A program made the position numbers and the translations under genes. Shown piece after piece: positions 12,997 to 19,738 of a stretch of 49,074 nt of DNA. The notes beneath the pieces are model-generated. The model searched no databases and was not told the DNA's origin. It saw only the letters and a program-made list of their open reading frames with translations. Source of the stretch: an uncultured Lachnotalea sp. (GTDB lineage: Bacteria; Bacillota; Clostridia; Lachnospirales; Lachnospiraceae); contig CAOKOS010000017.1 in the NCBI GenBank assembly GCA_948470255.1, positions 1-49,074 of the forward strand, in the 5' to 3' direction. Positions within the stretch are counted from its first letter, which is position 1. Every line of letters begins with the position of its first letter.

Positions 12997-15582
12997 TTAT
13001 TCTACATAAGCTGTCAGTGCACCGTCCTCCACATCCATGACAATGACGCCGCCGGCCCGCACCTGATCAGCCAAAATCAGTTTCGCTGCCTGTGTTTCCA
13101 CATGTTTTTGCAGATACCGTTTTAACGGCCTTGCCCCATAGATGGGATCGTATCCGTTCTCAGCCACAAATGCTTCGGCGGATGGCGTCAGCCGGATAGA
13201 AATCTCCCGTTCCTCCAGGCGTTTATTCACATCCTGCAGCAACAACCCAATAATATGGCTGATATTCTCTTTTGTCAACGGCTTAAACATAATGATTTCA
13301 TCCAAACGGTTCAAAAATTCGGGGCGGAAATGGTTTTTCAGGTCATCCATAACCAATTTCTCATTTTCAGGGCGGATGTTGCCGTCCTCATCAATCCCTT
13401 CCAAAAGGTAAGAGGAACCCAGGTTGGAAGTCATAATCAGCACCGTATTCTTAAAATCCACTGTCCGTCCCTGGGAATCCGTAATGCGGCCGTCATCCAA
13501 GATCTGCAAAAGTACATTAAACACATCGGGATGGGCTTTCTCAATCTCATCAAAAAGCACTACAGAATAAGGTTTCCTCCTGACAGCTTCCGTCAGCTGC
13601 CCGCCTTCATCATAGCCCACATAGCCCGGAGGCGCCCCGATCAGGCGGGACACAGAATATTTCTCCATGTATTCACTCATATCAATGCGGACCATATTCT
13701 GTTCGTCGTCAAACAAGCTTTCCGCCAGCGCTTTGGCCAGCTCTGTTTTACCCACGCCAGTGGGTCCCAAGAACAAAAAGGAACCGATGGGCTTTGTCGG
13801 ATCTTTGATACCGGCCCTGGAACGGATAATGGCTTCCGTTACTTTAGTCACGCCTTCTTCCTGGCCGATGACCCGCTTATGAAGCTCTTCATCCAGATGC
13901 AGCGTCTTATTCCGCTCGCTTTCCGTCAGTTTTGCCACAGGAATTCCAGTCCACCTGGATATAATCCTGGCAATCTCTTCTTCCGTCACCGCTTCATGAA
14001 GAAGCGTCATATCCTCTTTTTTGGCCTTCTCCTCCTCGATCTCAAGCTGCTTTACCAGACCGGGAAGCGTCCCGTACTGAAGTTCTGCCGCTTTTTCCAG
14101 GTCATAGTTCCTTTCAGCCAGCTGAATCTGGGTATTGATATCATCAATTTGCCCTCGAAGCCTCTGAAGCCGTTCCACAGAAGTCTTTTCATTGTCCCAC
14201 TGGGCCTTCATCTTTCCAAACTCATCCCTGAAGTCGGCCAATTCTTTCTGGATTGCCTCCAGTCGGTCACGGCTTAAATTATCTGTCTCTTTCTTAAGCG
14301 CCGCCTCTTCGATCTCAAGCTGCATAATTTTTCTGGACAATTCATCCAGCTCTGTCGGCATGGAATCCAGTTCTGTCTTGATCAGGGCACACGCTTCATC
14401 TACCAGGTCGATGGCCTTGTCCGGCAGGAACCGGTCGGAAATATAGCGGTTGGACAGCACAGCCGCACTCACAAGGGCCGAATCTGTAATTTTGACTCCA
14501 TGGAATACTTCATAGCGGTCTTTTAGCCCCCTCAGGATGGATATGGTGTCCTCTACCGCAGGCTCATCCACCAAAACCGGCTGGAAACGCCTCTCCAGCG
14601 CCGCGTCTTTTTCAATATATTTGCGGTATTCATCCAAGGTTGTAGCCCCAATGCAGTGCAGTTCTCCTCTGGCTAACATGGGTTTCAGCATATTTCCTGC
14701 ATCCATGGCCCCGTCTGTCTTCCCCGCACCCACTATGGTGTGAAGCTCGTCCACAAACAGGAGGATTTTCCCCTCGCTTTTTTTAACCTCCTCCAGTACT
14801 GCTTTTAACCGCTCCTCAAATTCCCCCCTATACTTAGCCCCTGCCACCAGGGCGCCCATATCCAGGGAAAATACGATTTTATCTTTTAGCCCTTCCGGCA
14901 CGTCTCCCCTGACAATTCTCTGGGCCAGGCCTTCTACCACCGCCGTCTTTCCAACCCCTGGTTCACCAATCAGTACCGGATTATTTTTTGTCTTTCTCGA
15001 CAAAATCCGAATCACGTTCCGGATTTCCGTATCCCGCCCAATGACAGGATCCATCTCCTGTTTTCTGGCCCTCTCCACCAGATCGGCGCCGTATTTCGCC
15101 AGCGTATCATAAGTGGCCTCTGGATTGTCACTGGTGACGCGCTGGTTCCCGCGGACTGTCGAAAGGGCCTGCAAAAACCGTTCCCTGGTGATGCCGAACT
15201 CTGTAAACAGAGCCTTTACTGCTCCATTGGGATATTTGATCAGCGCCAAAAACAGATGTTCCACTGACACATATTCGTCCCCCATCTGCTTCGCCTCATC
15301 TTCCGCATTCACCAACACTTTATTTAATTCCGTGCTGACATAAAGCTTTCCTGAACCGGAAACTTTCGTCTTCCGGTTCAGCGCTTCTTCCACCCGGTTC
15401 ATAAAATATTCCGGCTGTATTTCCATTTTAACGATCATTTTTTTGATCAGGCTGTCCTCCAGCTCCAAAAGCCCCGACAGCAAATGTTCTTCATCTATTT
15501 CCTGATTACCATATTCATAAGCCAGCTTTTCACAGTTTTGGACTGCCTGAAGAGAATTTTGCGTAAATTTATTGATATTCAT
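12997..15582 (-). CDS. clpB: ATP-dependent disaggregase ClpB
   Basis: A hexameric AAA+ disaggregase that rescues aggregated proteins with DnaK. The 861-residue product has the Clp N-domain (residues 1-145), NBD1 with Walker [10 protein letters not shown] near 205 and Walker [16 protein letters not shown], the ClpB-specific coiled-coil middle domain (about 395-520), and NBD2 with GPTGVGKTE and [14 protein letters not shown]. The long middle domain separates it from ClpC and ClpA, and no LGF-type ClpP loop is apparent. The start is ATG 15582, seven bases after GGGAGG; a start five residues earlier would overlap that site. Regulation is visible: a promoter embedded in a CIRCE operator lies upstream. 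Confidence 0.96.
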
Positions 15583-16778: not shown

Positions 16779-16806
16779 ATTATAAATTCCTTTTTTCTTT
16801 TGTCAA
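16779..16806 (-). promoter_or_regulatory. SigA-type promoter of the haemerythrin gene
   Basis: On the minus strand TTGACA (16801-16806) and TATAAT (16779-16784) with a 16-base spacer, both perfect hexamers, 43 bases upstream of the ATG. It lies just outside the left border of the invertible hsdS cassette. Confidence 0.85.
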
Positions 16807-16851
16807 CTTTTTATCAAAAGTTCTTTCTGCCGACTGGTAAAAGCAGATAAC

Positions 16852-16890
16852 ATAATTTGCATTATGAGAAGTTTGCAGACGGAAGGGTGG
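16852..16890 (+). repeat. Left inverted repeat (IRL) of the hsdS switch
   Basis: A 39-base sequence beginning ATAATTTGCATTATGAG and ending GGAAGGGTGG. It is identical base for base to the reverse complement of 19183-19221; the match stops sharply on both sides. It encodes NLHYEKFADGRV of HsdS in the same frame in both copies, so recombination preserves the reading frame. Confidence 0.95.
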
Positions 16891-18188
16891 AATGTATTGA
16901 AAGCGAAATCCCCTTTATGTTACCGGAAAGATGGGAATGGACACGGTTAAGCAGTATTACAGAAATGATTACAAAGGGGGCCTCTCCAAAATGGCAGGGG
17001 ATTCATTACGCCGAAAAAGGAGTTCTGTTTATTACCAGCCAAAATGTCGGTACAGAAAACCTTATCTTGTCCCCTCCCAAATATCTTGATAAAAAAATAA
17101 ATGAAGTTCAGCCGCGGTCAGTTTTGAAAACCCACGATGTTCTTACCAATATTGTGGGGAATTCCATCGGGAGAACCTGCGAATATCCATTAAATGCTCC
17201 GGCAAATATCAACCAGGCTGTTGCAATTATCCGTATGTCTGATTTGCAGATGGTTCCGTATATCATAAAGTTTTTAAACAGCAGCCACGCCGTTTCCCTT
17301 ATGATGGAAAACCAGGTAGATGTGGCCCGCGCAAACTTAAGCTTAAGGAGTATATCAAGATTTATTGTGCCGGTTCCCCCTCTCGAAGAGCAAAAAAGAA
17401 TTACGAATATCGTAAATAAGGCTTTCAAATATATTGATATTATTGATTCAAATATAAAGGATCTTAAAACTTTCATTCAATCATATAAATATAAACTTCT
17501 TGACCTGGCTGTTAAAGGCAGACTGATACCTCAAAACCCTGATGATGAACCGGCCTCCGTGTTACTGGAAAACGCCAGGGCTGGAAAGAAAGAATTTACA
17601 GATTGCCCAACAATCAGACAACGAAAAAAACAGATGGGCAGACGTCTTCGGGAAACACCGTTTCACATACCAAACGGATGGGCGTGGAGTAACCTTCACG
17701 ACTTATGTAATTATGGGAATTGTATCCGAGTTCCCGCTGAAAGCATCCCTGACGATGCCTGGATATTAGAATTGGAGGATATTGAAAAATACAGCGGAAA
17801 ACTACTTCGTCGGATTATGGCGAAAGAGCATACCTCTACAAGTACAAAATATTTTTTTCATAAAGATATGGTACTTTACAGTAGATTAAGACCCTATCTG
17901 AATAAAGTTATTTTAGCGGATATGGACGGTTACTGCACACCGGAAATTTTACCACTGGATTTTGTGAAAGAAATCTGCCCGGAATATGCACAAATCTTTT
18001 TAATGTCTCCAATTTTTATGGAATATGCTAACCGTTGTTCTCATGGGATGAAAATGCCTCGGCTGGGAACAGAAGACGGACAGAGCGCCTATTTTCCCGT
18101 CCCCCCTTACAAAGAACAATTAAGAATTGTAAATACAATAAAGCAGTTTATGGACGTGCTTCAAAACATGGAATTTGTCATTACTTAA
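16857..18188 (+). CDS. hsdS: Type I restriction specificity subunit HsdS, body lacking its start (silent orientation)
   Basis: HsdS recognises the target DNA for a type I methyltransferase or restriction complex. This piece holds TRD1 (about residues 20-190, beginning IPFMLPERWEWTRLSS), a central conserved helix (YKYKLLDLAVKGRLIPQNPDDEPASVLLE, near 215-245) and TRD2 (about 265-440, IPNGWAWSNL to YKEQLRIVNTIKQF). The canonical N-terminal block is missing. The frame is closed by TAA at 16848-16850; the first in-frame codon candidate is a TTG with no ribosome site, so it is probably untranslated as it stands. Its 5' end is the inverted repeat; the missing start is at 19148-19414 on the opposite strand. 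A terminator follows the stop. Confidence 0.9.
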   Translation: MHYEKFADGRVECIESEIPFMLPERWEWTRLSSITEMITKGASPKWQGIHYAEKGVLFITSQNVGTENLILSPPKYLDKKINEVQPRSVLKTHDVLTNIVGNSIGRTCEYPLNAPANINQAVAIIRMSDLQMVPYIIKFLNSSHAVSLMMENQVDVARANLSLRSISRFIVPVPPLEEQKRITNIVNKAFKYIDIIDSNIKDLKTFIQSYKYKLLDLAVKGRLIPQNPDDEPASVLLENARAGKKEFTDCPTIRQRKKQMGRRLRETPFHIPNGWAWSNLHDLCNYGNCIRVPAESIPDDAWILELEDIEKYSGKLLRRIMAKEHTSTSTKYFFHKDMVLYSRLRPYLNKVILADMDGYCTPEILPLDFVKEICPEYAQIFLMSPIFMEYANRCSHGMKMPRLGTEDGQSAYFPVPPYKEQLRIVNTIKQFMDVLQNMEFVIT

Positions 18189-18195
18189 AATTATA

Positions 18196-18222
18196 CCCGG
18201 AGCTTTTTAGCTCCGGGCTTTT
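18196..18222 (+). terminator. Intrinsic terminator after the hsdS body
   Basis: Perfect 9-base arms CCCGGAGCT (18196-18204) and AGCTCCGGG (18209-18217), loop TTTT, then CTTTTAT. It moves with the cassette and would end the hsdS transcript in the on orientation, before it runs antisense into the recombinase gene. Confidence 0.85.
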
Positions 18223-18240
18223 ATAAACTTAAATGAACAG

Positions 18241-19038
18241 TTACCACGTTACAATTTGATCAATCAAGGCTTGTTGTTCCATTGAAGTCCGCCGCAGATA
18301 AATTCTTGTGGTTTCTATGCTTTCATGTCCCATCAAATCTGCCAGCAGTGCAATATCACTATATTTTTCCAAAAAATTTTTAGCAAAAAGGTGCCGGAAC
18401 GAATGAGGATAAATTACACTCTTATCCAAACCATATTTATCGGCATAGTTTTTCAGCTGTTGGGAAATACCTCGGGCAGTAATCCGTTCTCCAAATTTAT
18501 TTAAAAATAAATAACCGTATGTACGTCTTTTTTCTGCCAGCCATTTTTGTGTTTCTTCACGGAGCCTTTTCGGAATGTACAGCCTGCGCAGTTTTCCGCC
18601 TTTGCTGTACAAATCGAAATATCCAAAATCAATGTGTTCCACTTTGATTTGTATTAATTCACTTACCCTGGCGCCAGTGGCGGCCAAATACCAGACGACA
18701 AAATACCATTGCATGTTGCCGTCTTTTTTTAACTGTCTTTTCAGGAAATGATAATCCGCATTGCTTACCACATTTTCCAAAAAATTTTTCTGTTGAATTT
18801 TAACAGCTGATAACTTTAAATACTTTAACCCTTTAAAATCCAGATATTTATTGATCGCCTGAATCCTTAGATTTGCAGTTCTTGGGCTAAAATATTCCAC
18901 CAGATATCCTTTATATGCCAATAGATTTTCTCTTGATAAGGAATCATAATTTTGGGCGTAATAGTCCGCTGTCCACATGTAGACAGAAATTGTGTGATCT
19001 GATAAATCTTCTTTTTTTAAATAGTCTTCAAATGTCAC
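18241..19038 (-). CDS. Tyrosine recombinase (DNA invertase of the hsdS switch)
   Basis: A 265-residue phage-integrase-family enzyme. An N-terminal SAM-like core-binding domain (residues 1-85, FEDYLKKEDLSDHTISVYM) precedes the catalytic domain with Arg124 (ATGARVSEL), a lysine near 146-149, His212 and Arg215 (PHSFRHLFAK), His238 (LMGHES) and Tyr247 (TRIYLRR), a complete set. The start is GTG 19038, nine bases after GGAGG; the longer frame to 19077 has no such site. A TATAAT at 19084-19089 may be its -10. It converges on the hsdS body inside the inverted repeats, the arrangement typical of recombinases that flip hsdS, so those repeats are its likely substrate. Confidence 0.9.
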   Translation of the reverse strand: MTFEDYLKKEDLSDHTISVYMWTADYYAQNYDSLSRENLLAYKGYLVEYFSPRTANLRIQAINKYLDFKGLKYLKLSAVKIQQKNFLENVVSNADYHFLKRQLKKDGNMQWYFVVWYLAATGARVSELIQIKVEHIDFGYFDLYSKGGKLRRLYIPKRLREETQKWLAEKRRTYGYLFLNKFGERITARGISQQLKNYADKYGLDKSVIYPHSFRHLFAKNFLEKYSDIALLADLMGHESIETTRIYLRRTSMEQQALIDQIVTW

Positions 19039-19147
19039 GTTTTTGCACCTCCAAAAATCTGCGGAATTCCTTGTCATTCTAAGATTATAAGGTCAAAACC
19101 GTGAACAAGTGAATTTTTTTCTAATTTTTTACTTTAAGTGTCGCGAA

Positions 19148-19414
19148 CTACGAATCTGATAGATGAATATTTTTAATAAATCCCACCCTTCCGTCTGCAA
19201 ACTTCTCATAATGCAAATTATCCCCACCACGAAAAATAATTGTATCATTTTTTGGATTTTTTCCTTTTAATTTTCCGTCTCCAGCTAACATTTGCTTTTT
19301 CGCATGTATTCTTTCCAACAAAACAGAGGCCGGCTCGTCATCACTATTTTGCGAAATAAGCTTTCCTCTGATTGCCAAGTCCAGTATTTTCTGCCTTAAT
19401 GCTTTCGTATCCAT
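19148..19414 (-). CDS. hsdS: HsdS N-terminal fragment (expression end of the switch)
   Basis: An 88-residue frame starting MDTKALRQKILDLAIRGKL, the classic start of an HsdS, followed by NSDDEPASVLLERIHAKKQ and DNLHYEKFADGRV. The last 11 residues (GFIKNIHLSDS) follow the inverted repeat and are probably non-native sequence read until a stop. ATG 19414 has a GGAG site six bases upstream; an in-frame start at 19447 lacks one. After inversion the first 77 residues would be fused to the body at 16891-18188. Upstream there is a TATGAT-like -10 but no clear -35, so the promoter is not certain. Confidence 0.88.
   Translation of the reverse strand: MDTKALRQKILDLAIRGKLISQNSDDEPASVLLERIHAKKQMLAGDGKLKGKNPKNDTIIFRGGDNLHYEKFADGRVGFIKNIHLSDS
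19183..19221 (-). repeat. Right inverted repeat (IRR) of the hsdS switch
   Basis: The exact 39-base reverse complement of 16852-16890, coding for the same HsdS residues on the minus strand. Bases on either side differ (C versus G before it, AATG versus GATT after it), which fixes the repeat ends. Confidence 0.95.
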
Positions 19415-19555
19415 AAGCCACTCCGTTCCGGTTCCAGTTAAAGTCATGTAATGGCACTAAAAATTGTATCATATCTGCAATGGCACACACAGACTTTTTT
19501 CTTCTTTTTTAGACAAAACAAAAAATTAGAAAGACTTTCCAGATAATGGAACCCT

Positions 19556-19738
19556 TTAATTAAAATCCCCTTCCACGATGATGCCGTCAATGGGCGCTTT
19601 TTCTCCCGGCCGCACCGCAAGCATACTTCCTGCCACCGCCATCAAAAAGTTTTCATCAAACACTCTCCCATTCCGGCTCACTTTAAAGGCCTTTCTCACT
19701 TCCTCCATAACAGTTTTCACATCACTGCTTTCCTCCAA
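19556..19738 (-). pseudogene. Remnant of a heavy-metal P-type ATPase
   Basis: A 60-codon frame that joins two non-adjacent pieces of a CadA/ZntA-type ATPase. NGRVFDENFLMAVA corresponds to the region before the first membrane pair, and LAVRPGEKAPIDGIIVEGDF to the actuator-domain motif (usually VKPGEKVPIDGVV-EG). The roughly 80 residues normally between them, including membrane helices, are gone, and no phosphorylation DKTGT motif follows. It is a degraded relic. Its place between the hsdS switch and a palindromic repeat suggests a deletion-prone region. Confidence 0.55.

Follow-up and report, generated by a model that had tools for sequence, protein, structure and literature searches.

Relation to described inverting hsdS systems

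The closest described relatives of the locus reported here are the PsrA inverting Type I loci, which include SpnIII/cod of Streptococcus pneumoniae and its relatives (PMC7394358, PMC7096588). Such loci hold a PsrA-kind recombinase within the locus and inverted repeats in hsdS before the first target-recognition domain (TRD), and inversion exchanges specificity among two or three HsdS bodies. Here, we describe an hsdS inversion cassette at positions 16852 to 19221 of a 49,074-nucleotide stretch of DNA from an uncultured Lachnotalea sp. (contig CAOKOS010000017.1 of assembly GCA_948470255.1; the whole stretch is called the window below). While the recombinase and the placement of the repeats within hsdS, ahead of the first TRD, are shared with the systems above, the window differs in having one body and an outcome that is predicted to be on/off, and it lacks both a further repeat pair located between the TRDs and any linked hsdM or hsdR. 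By sequence comparison, the locus appears to derive from PsrA-type inverting Type I loci, and with these departures it is best called a variant of them. In our judgement, it is probably such a locus reduced to a single body and acting as an on/off toggle, with an HsdS that most likely pairs with an HsdM encoded on another contig (C28) of the same assembly.

Within the Lachnospiraceae, hsdRMS shufflons of three genomes (G104, locus L171; G257, locus L175; and Frisingicoccus caecimuris G322, locus L190) have the repeat site in common with the window, along with an HsdS N-terminus that is 71-74% identical and a recombinase that is 75-80% identical. Unlike the window, these shufflons retain hsdR and hsdM, and together with a full-length hsdS they have one or more silent bodies. 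Intragenic invertons, in which inversion inside a gene changes it between on and off, were reportedly described by Chanin et al. in 2024 (as cited in PMC11892184). They share with the cassette an inversion that would turn a full-length open reading frame (ORF) into a truncated one, but in the window the invertase lies within the invertible segment and the gene encodes the specificity subunit of a split methyltransferase. Moreover, NgoAV of Neisseria gonorrhoeae has a single hsdS that likewise switches between full-length and truncated forms, though by frameshift in a repeat tract and not by inversion, and its truncated product is described as having a methylation specificity of its own (PMC7394358).

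Architecture of the cassette

An earlier note, made from the letters of the window alone, had proposed a perfect 39-bp inverted repeat enclosing a start-less HsdS body and a tyrosine recombinase, and our repeat search, ORF listing, and profile matches agree with it on each of these. The principal features are as follows.

16852..16890, plus strand: left inverted repeat, perfect over 39 bp (94% over 51 bp)
16857..18188, plus strand: start-less HsdS body of 443 residues with TRD1, central region, and TRD2 (ORF, PF01420, solved HsdS chains)
18241..19077, minus strand: PsrA-kind tyrosine recombinase of 278 residues (ORF, Phage_integrase profile, relatives)
19148..19182, minus strand: end of the empty arm, with 11 codons before the stop, an apparent remnant of a lost body start
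19148..19414, minus strand: hsdS 5' stub, 88 residues now and 509 after inversion
19183..19221, minus strand: right inverted repeat, identical to the left copy

By chance, a perfect inverted pair of 39 bp would be expected in the window only about 4e-15 times. In fact, this is the one exact repeat pair of at least 16 bp between positions 14001 and 22000, and the comparison loci L138-L140 hold several each. The HsdS body matches PF01420 at 8.2e-12, and two stretches of it are matched by solved HsdS chains (residues 24-187 by 7vru_C and residues 264-436 by 3okg_A), which we take, on this likeness, as the two TRDs. The recombinase ORF matches the Phage_integrase profile (PF00589) at 5.9e-25, and by eye, from its translation and an alignment to a XerC-like structure, the residues R, K, H-x-x-R, H, and Y stand at their usual places; these we presume to be the catalytic motif of tyrosine recombinases.

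When the segment 16852..19221 was inverted by script, a single ORF of 509 residues resulted from the hsdS start at 19414 on the minus strand, as the note had foreseen, whereas the assembled orientation gives 88 residues from the same start. Thus, the HsdS N-terminal region is in frame with the body only after inversion. The frames of the stub (up to the repeat), the body, and the recombinase are all open. The note had placed the 77 N-terminal residues outside the right repeat on the opposite strand; the strand is right, but the location is so only in part, with about 64 residues lying outside and about 13 inside the repeat. Mechanistically, the recombinase would invert the 2.4-kb segment between the repeats. 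In the ON orientation, the stub would be fused to the body to give the 509-residue HsdS, and in the OFF orientation, which is the assembled one, the stub would stop at 88 residues and the body, lacking a start, would presumably be silent.

Kinship with hsdS shufflon loci

The recombinase is 78%, 80%, 75%, and 82% identical (BLASTP) to those of G104, G257, G322, and G091, respectively, and 65.4% identical over 95% of the query to an annotated PsrA in a Streptococcus dysgalactiae record. The first three of these genomes carry shufflons in which hsdM and hsdS are joined by a half body, the recombinase, and another body, with hsdR complete in G104 and G322 and split over two contigs in G257; the parts in G091 are spread over two contigs (L137 and L201). 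The order in G104 is stub, repeat, body 1, half body, recombinase, body 2, and repeat, and that of the window is the same minus body 1 and the half body. Deletion of these two pieces from a G104-like order would be the simplest history. The cassette probably originated from a multi-body hsdRMS shufflon by loss of the body next to the stub, an event that would have turned specificity switching into on/off switching.

Searching named genomes with the recombinase yielded 34 loci. In 21 of these, hsdR, hsdM, and a long hsdS occur with one or more additional hsdS pieces. This count takes in L175, with hsdR cut by the contig end; L193, with the recombinase in two pieces and hsdS as a 623-residue open frame; and L195, with hsdM in two pieces. 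Another locus (L183) has hsdR, hsdM, and a broken hsdS of 384 residues, and the last 12 are remnants, incomplete, or cut by a contig end. One body is seen in L169, L184, and L188, where the contig ends beside the recombinase and the form is not judgeable; L196 and L198 look like decayed orphans or remnants. The one-body form of the window is absent from all judgeable loci of the 34 scanned. In one of the recombinase scans, relatives were taken at E <= 1e-30. On plasmids, relatives of the recombinase were found in 15 records at E <= 1e-60, and each of the five that were examined, all by annotation and three also by their ORFs, has more than one hsdS piece. A phage origin of the cassette was considered and set aside, as no relative of the recombinase was found in viral_contigs by a scan sensitive to close relatives only.

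The inverted form, which the note had suggested seeking in related genomes, was not met with: ten genomes of the same genus hold no close counterpart of the 509-residue protein, whose only matches among them are in G005 and G010 (51% over 92 residues at best, in G010).

Two further observations concern recombinases of this kind. Those of L141, L143, and L145-L151 are 57-59% identical to that of the window, and no hsdS was noticed by eye in the ORF listings of these loci, where some neighbours resemble surface-glycan or cell-wall genes. In genome G082, six matches to PsrA-kind recombinases cluster in an apparent tandem array (contig C89:18470-25633).

The proposed recombination site and the empty arm

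Among the fetched loci, 21 hsdS starts were recognised, and their open frames run to 492-540 residues in 20 and to 384 residues in one (L183), as against 88 residues in the window. Along with the anatomy, this agrees with the note's proposal of a one-body, on/off form that is now off, an assignment made from sequence comparison. The short hsdS starts of L080, L086, L178, and L201 reach a contig end. After the repeat, the arm of the window reads GFIKN where its relatives read KCIED. The 11 codons that the note had counted beyond the shared 77 residues are there, though they seem less meaningless than it had put it, in that they begin with an apparent eroded body start; past the stop, the arm enters DNA that by eye resembles the usual upstream region of the recombinase.

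The longest repeats of G104, G257, and G322 share their opening bases with that of the window, (A)TAATTT.CATTATGAG. When the 21 hsdS starts were compared as 20 distinct codon rows, five codons at this site had no synonymous change wherever the residue is kept (AAT 19/19, CAT 20/20, TAT 20/20, GAG 20/20, and AAG 17/17), while the codons adjoining them are mostly variable. The window retains all five in both of its identical repeat copies. Such unvarying codons are what a DNA-level constraint on the recombination site would show. Likewise without synonymous change (19/19 each) are GGT, five codons before CAT, and AAA, ten codons after it.

Candidate partner subunits

HsdS is inactive without HsdM. 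The output of the cassette therefore hinges on the HsdM of contig C28 or on one that was not assembled. The earlier note had called the switch self-contained, a description that is not borne out: neither hsdM nor hsdR lies beside the cassette or on the rest of contig C17, all of which is taken up by the window. The best N6_Mtase match in the genome is an ORF of 485 residues on C28 (L016, 3531-4988), set between MarR-like and GNAT-like genes with no adjoining hsdS. Its frame is open, and it encodes the only close HsdM in the genome, unlinked to the cassette. This protein resembles EcoKI M, and its identity (BLASTP) is 72% to the HsdM of G104, 71% to that of G257, and 64% to those of G006 and G010, with a separate local match of 69% over 440 residues in G006. 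In a tree of 21 HsdMs (20 different), which left out two distant HsdMs (G010 C4 and G113) as well as those of named-genome loci that were not on a list of 13 or lacked the required motif, the C28 protein is sister to a 12-row clade of mostly shufflon HsdMs that includes the G006/G010 pair, and further shufflon HsdMs lie outside. On this basis, the HsdS would most likely partner the unlinked, orphan HsdM of C28.

No HsdR was found in the 86.6%-complete assembly, either as a PF04313 match or with the HsdR of G104 as query, while the latter query had a match in each of 7 further genomes, in G007 at no better than 3e-7. With no HsdR, the ON state would leave the target motif methylated, and the OFF state would leave it unmethylated. 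It is possible, though we put it forward only tentatively, that the toggle is both unlinked and restriction-free, with a one-body cassette, from which a body of a former shufflon was lost, turning all methylation by a distant orphan HsdM on and off. We infer, likewise from the sequences, that the segment would invert in living cells, that the stub would be expressed, that its product would pair with the C28 HsdM, and that the role would be regulatory rather than defensive.

Two candidate histories of the C28 gene were rejected. Its being a leftover of a system of the G006/G010 type is at odds with the tree, which sets it outside the G006/G010 clade, though on a long branch whose place is unsure. 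Nor did we retain a joint origin of cassette and C28 hsdM as a split operon, as the score of the AACTGGAA shared by the DNA upstream of the stub and the tail of the C28 hsdM is reached in 14% of shuffles. At the counterpart of the C28 hsdM site, G007, G006, and G004 carry a pair of large ORFs resembling, by eye, the glutamate synthase subunits gltB and gltD.

A number of observations weigh against the reading of the cassette as a working toggle paired with C28. Its HsdM has a branch of 0.38 in the tree, compared with a median of 0.045, and its placement is unsure; the sister clade also contains the G006/G010 pair, which is not from shufflons. Further N6-methyltransferase matches occur on C14, C7, and C27, and the cognate hsdM or hsdR could lie in the missing part of the 86.6%-complete genome. 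The DNA upstream of the stub, when compared with hsdM tails, gave shuffle fractions of 0.14 (C28), 0.055, 0.078, and 0.99, none of them significant. In addition, the G+C content at third codon positions (GC3) is 0.35-0.39 in the cassette and 0.49 in the C28 hsdM, a difference that speaks against one joint origin. A promoter scan of 19415-19600 passed no promoter for the stub, and overall promoter counts were at chance. Finally, all three proteins depart at columns that are otherwise invariant. Of 263 columns that do not vary among 17 other rows, 22 are changed in the C28 HsdM, where each of those rows, when left out in turn, changes 0-6 (identical or near-identical rows scoring low by construction). 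The stub changes 6 of 38 such columns (0-3 in other rows), and the recombinase changes 6 of 161 (0-3 in other rows) in a set of 29 rows whose ORFs were picked by length and motif, near-identical rows included.

Alternative explanations

Foremost among the alternatives, and a real contender though less likely than the toggle, is that the locus is a decaying relic, in which captured, horizontally acquired Type I fragments lost hsdR and a body and which may still invert, with no working methyltransferase to serve. The missing hsdM and hsdR neighbours, the want of an HsdR match in the assembly, the faster change in the HsdM and the stub, and the differing base composition of the cassette and the C28 hsdM all fit this, as does the resemblance of the named-genome loci L196 and L198 to decayed remnants. 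Moreover, a short hsdS scrap at C49:15912-16034 (L002) lies next to an intact gene (MDLLNIL...) that resembles, as judged by eye, the gene after hsdS in G006 and G010, and suggests the scar of another, lost Type I hsdRMS operon in this genome. Against decay, however, stand the open frames, the motifs present by eye in the recombinase and the HsdM, and the identity of the two 39-bp repeat copies; the open frames also contrast with the neighbouring ATPase gene, which is reduced to fragments. Third positions account for most of the nucleotide differences (124 of 185 between the recombinases of the window and L168, and 298 of 492 between the hsdM genes of C28 and G104), yet this reflects mostly older history and does not date a recent decay. 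Dating by the ratio of nonsynonymous to synonymous change (dN/dS) was abandoned as uninformative on recent decay, with synonymous sites saturated in nearly all comparisons of the window or C28.

Far less probable is that an ordinary two-body shufflon was collapsed in assembly, with the loss of one body. The assembly is indeed a fragmented draft (87 contigs, 86.6% complete), and the stub contigs of L080, L086, and L201 stop at or soon after the repeat, which is expected where both orientations or several repeat copies break assembly. Nevertheless, a 71-base query across the repeat and the arm strongly matches only its own two places in the assembly (the next match has an E value of 0.155), and the continuation of the empty arm into DNA like that usually upstream of the recombinase, as read by eye, does not fit a collapse. 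Nor does the assembly contain a second body of the same kind: contig C14 does have an HsdS-like gene immediately following a methyltransferase-like one, but it is of a different kind, and its protein is unmatched by the 509-residue query. That the cassette is a silent store donating its body to an active hsdS elsewhere is the least credible explanation, as although known shufflons use silent hsdS genes in this way (PMC7096588, PMC7394358), and the C14 gene has a methyltransferase-like gene of its own, the assembly offers no other match to the 509-residue protein and no other good copy of the repeat, and the stub adjoins the cassette.

Genomic setting and minor features

Beyond its borders, the cassette has clpB (named from sequence), hemerythrin, and polysaccharide deacetylase genes as neighbours. 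In the nearest relative, G007, the hemerythrin protein is 93% identical, and the counterpart site holds an uninterrupted gene for a P-type ATPase of 643 residues (named from sequence). Homology to G007 ends at 16819 and restarts in fragments at 19526, from which it follows that the cassette has taken the place of the 3' part of this gene, whose remainder is eroded. With a GC content of 0.379, compared with 0.481 for the window, and its absence from G007, the cassette looks like a fairly recent guest. The remaining features within and beside it are listed here.

18195..18218, no strand assigned: hairpin lying between the body and recombinase ends, with the look of a terminator on either strand (2 sites, compared with 2.4 expected in shuffles, and so statistically unsupported)
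19084..19113, minus strand: promoter-like site (10 of 12) ahead of the recombinase; 9 such sites were found, compared with 9.5 expected by chance
19415..19525, no strand assigned: stretch upstream of the stub that lacks homology to G007 and in which no promoter passed the scan
19526..19695, minus strand: eroded P-type ATPase remnants with internal deletions relative to G007, where the gene is intact

An extended -10-like TGATACAAT was seen upstream of the stub by eye only. A 12-of-12 match to a sigma-70 promoter lies upstream of the hemerythrin gene (window 16779-16806, minus strand).

Significance

A limited literature search, which does not establish priority, brought up no description of a stand-alone, one-body hsdS inversion toggle. 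A REBASE survey looked downstream of Type I loci for duplicate hsdS genes with repeats (PMC7394358), and a lone one-body cassette could escape a survey of that type. If the cassette is live, the loss of one body can convert a specificity shuffler into a plain on/off switch. Its effect would then likely be on/off methylation without restriction, and phase-variable methylation could persist in the absence of restriction, even with the M and S genes apart.

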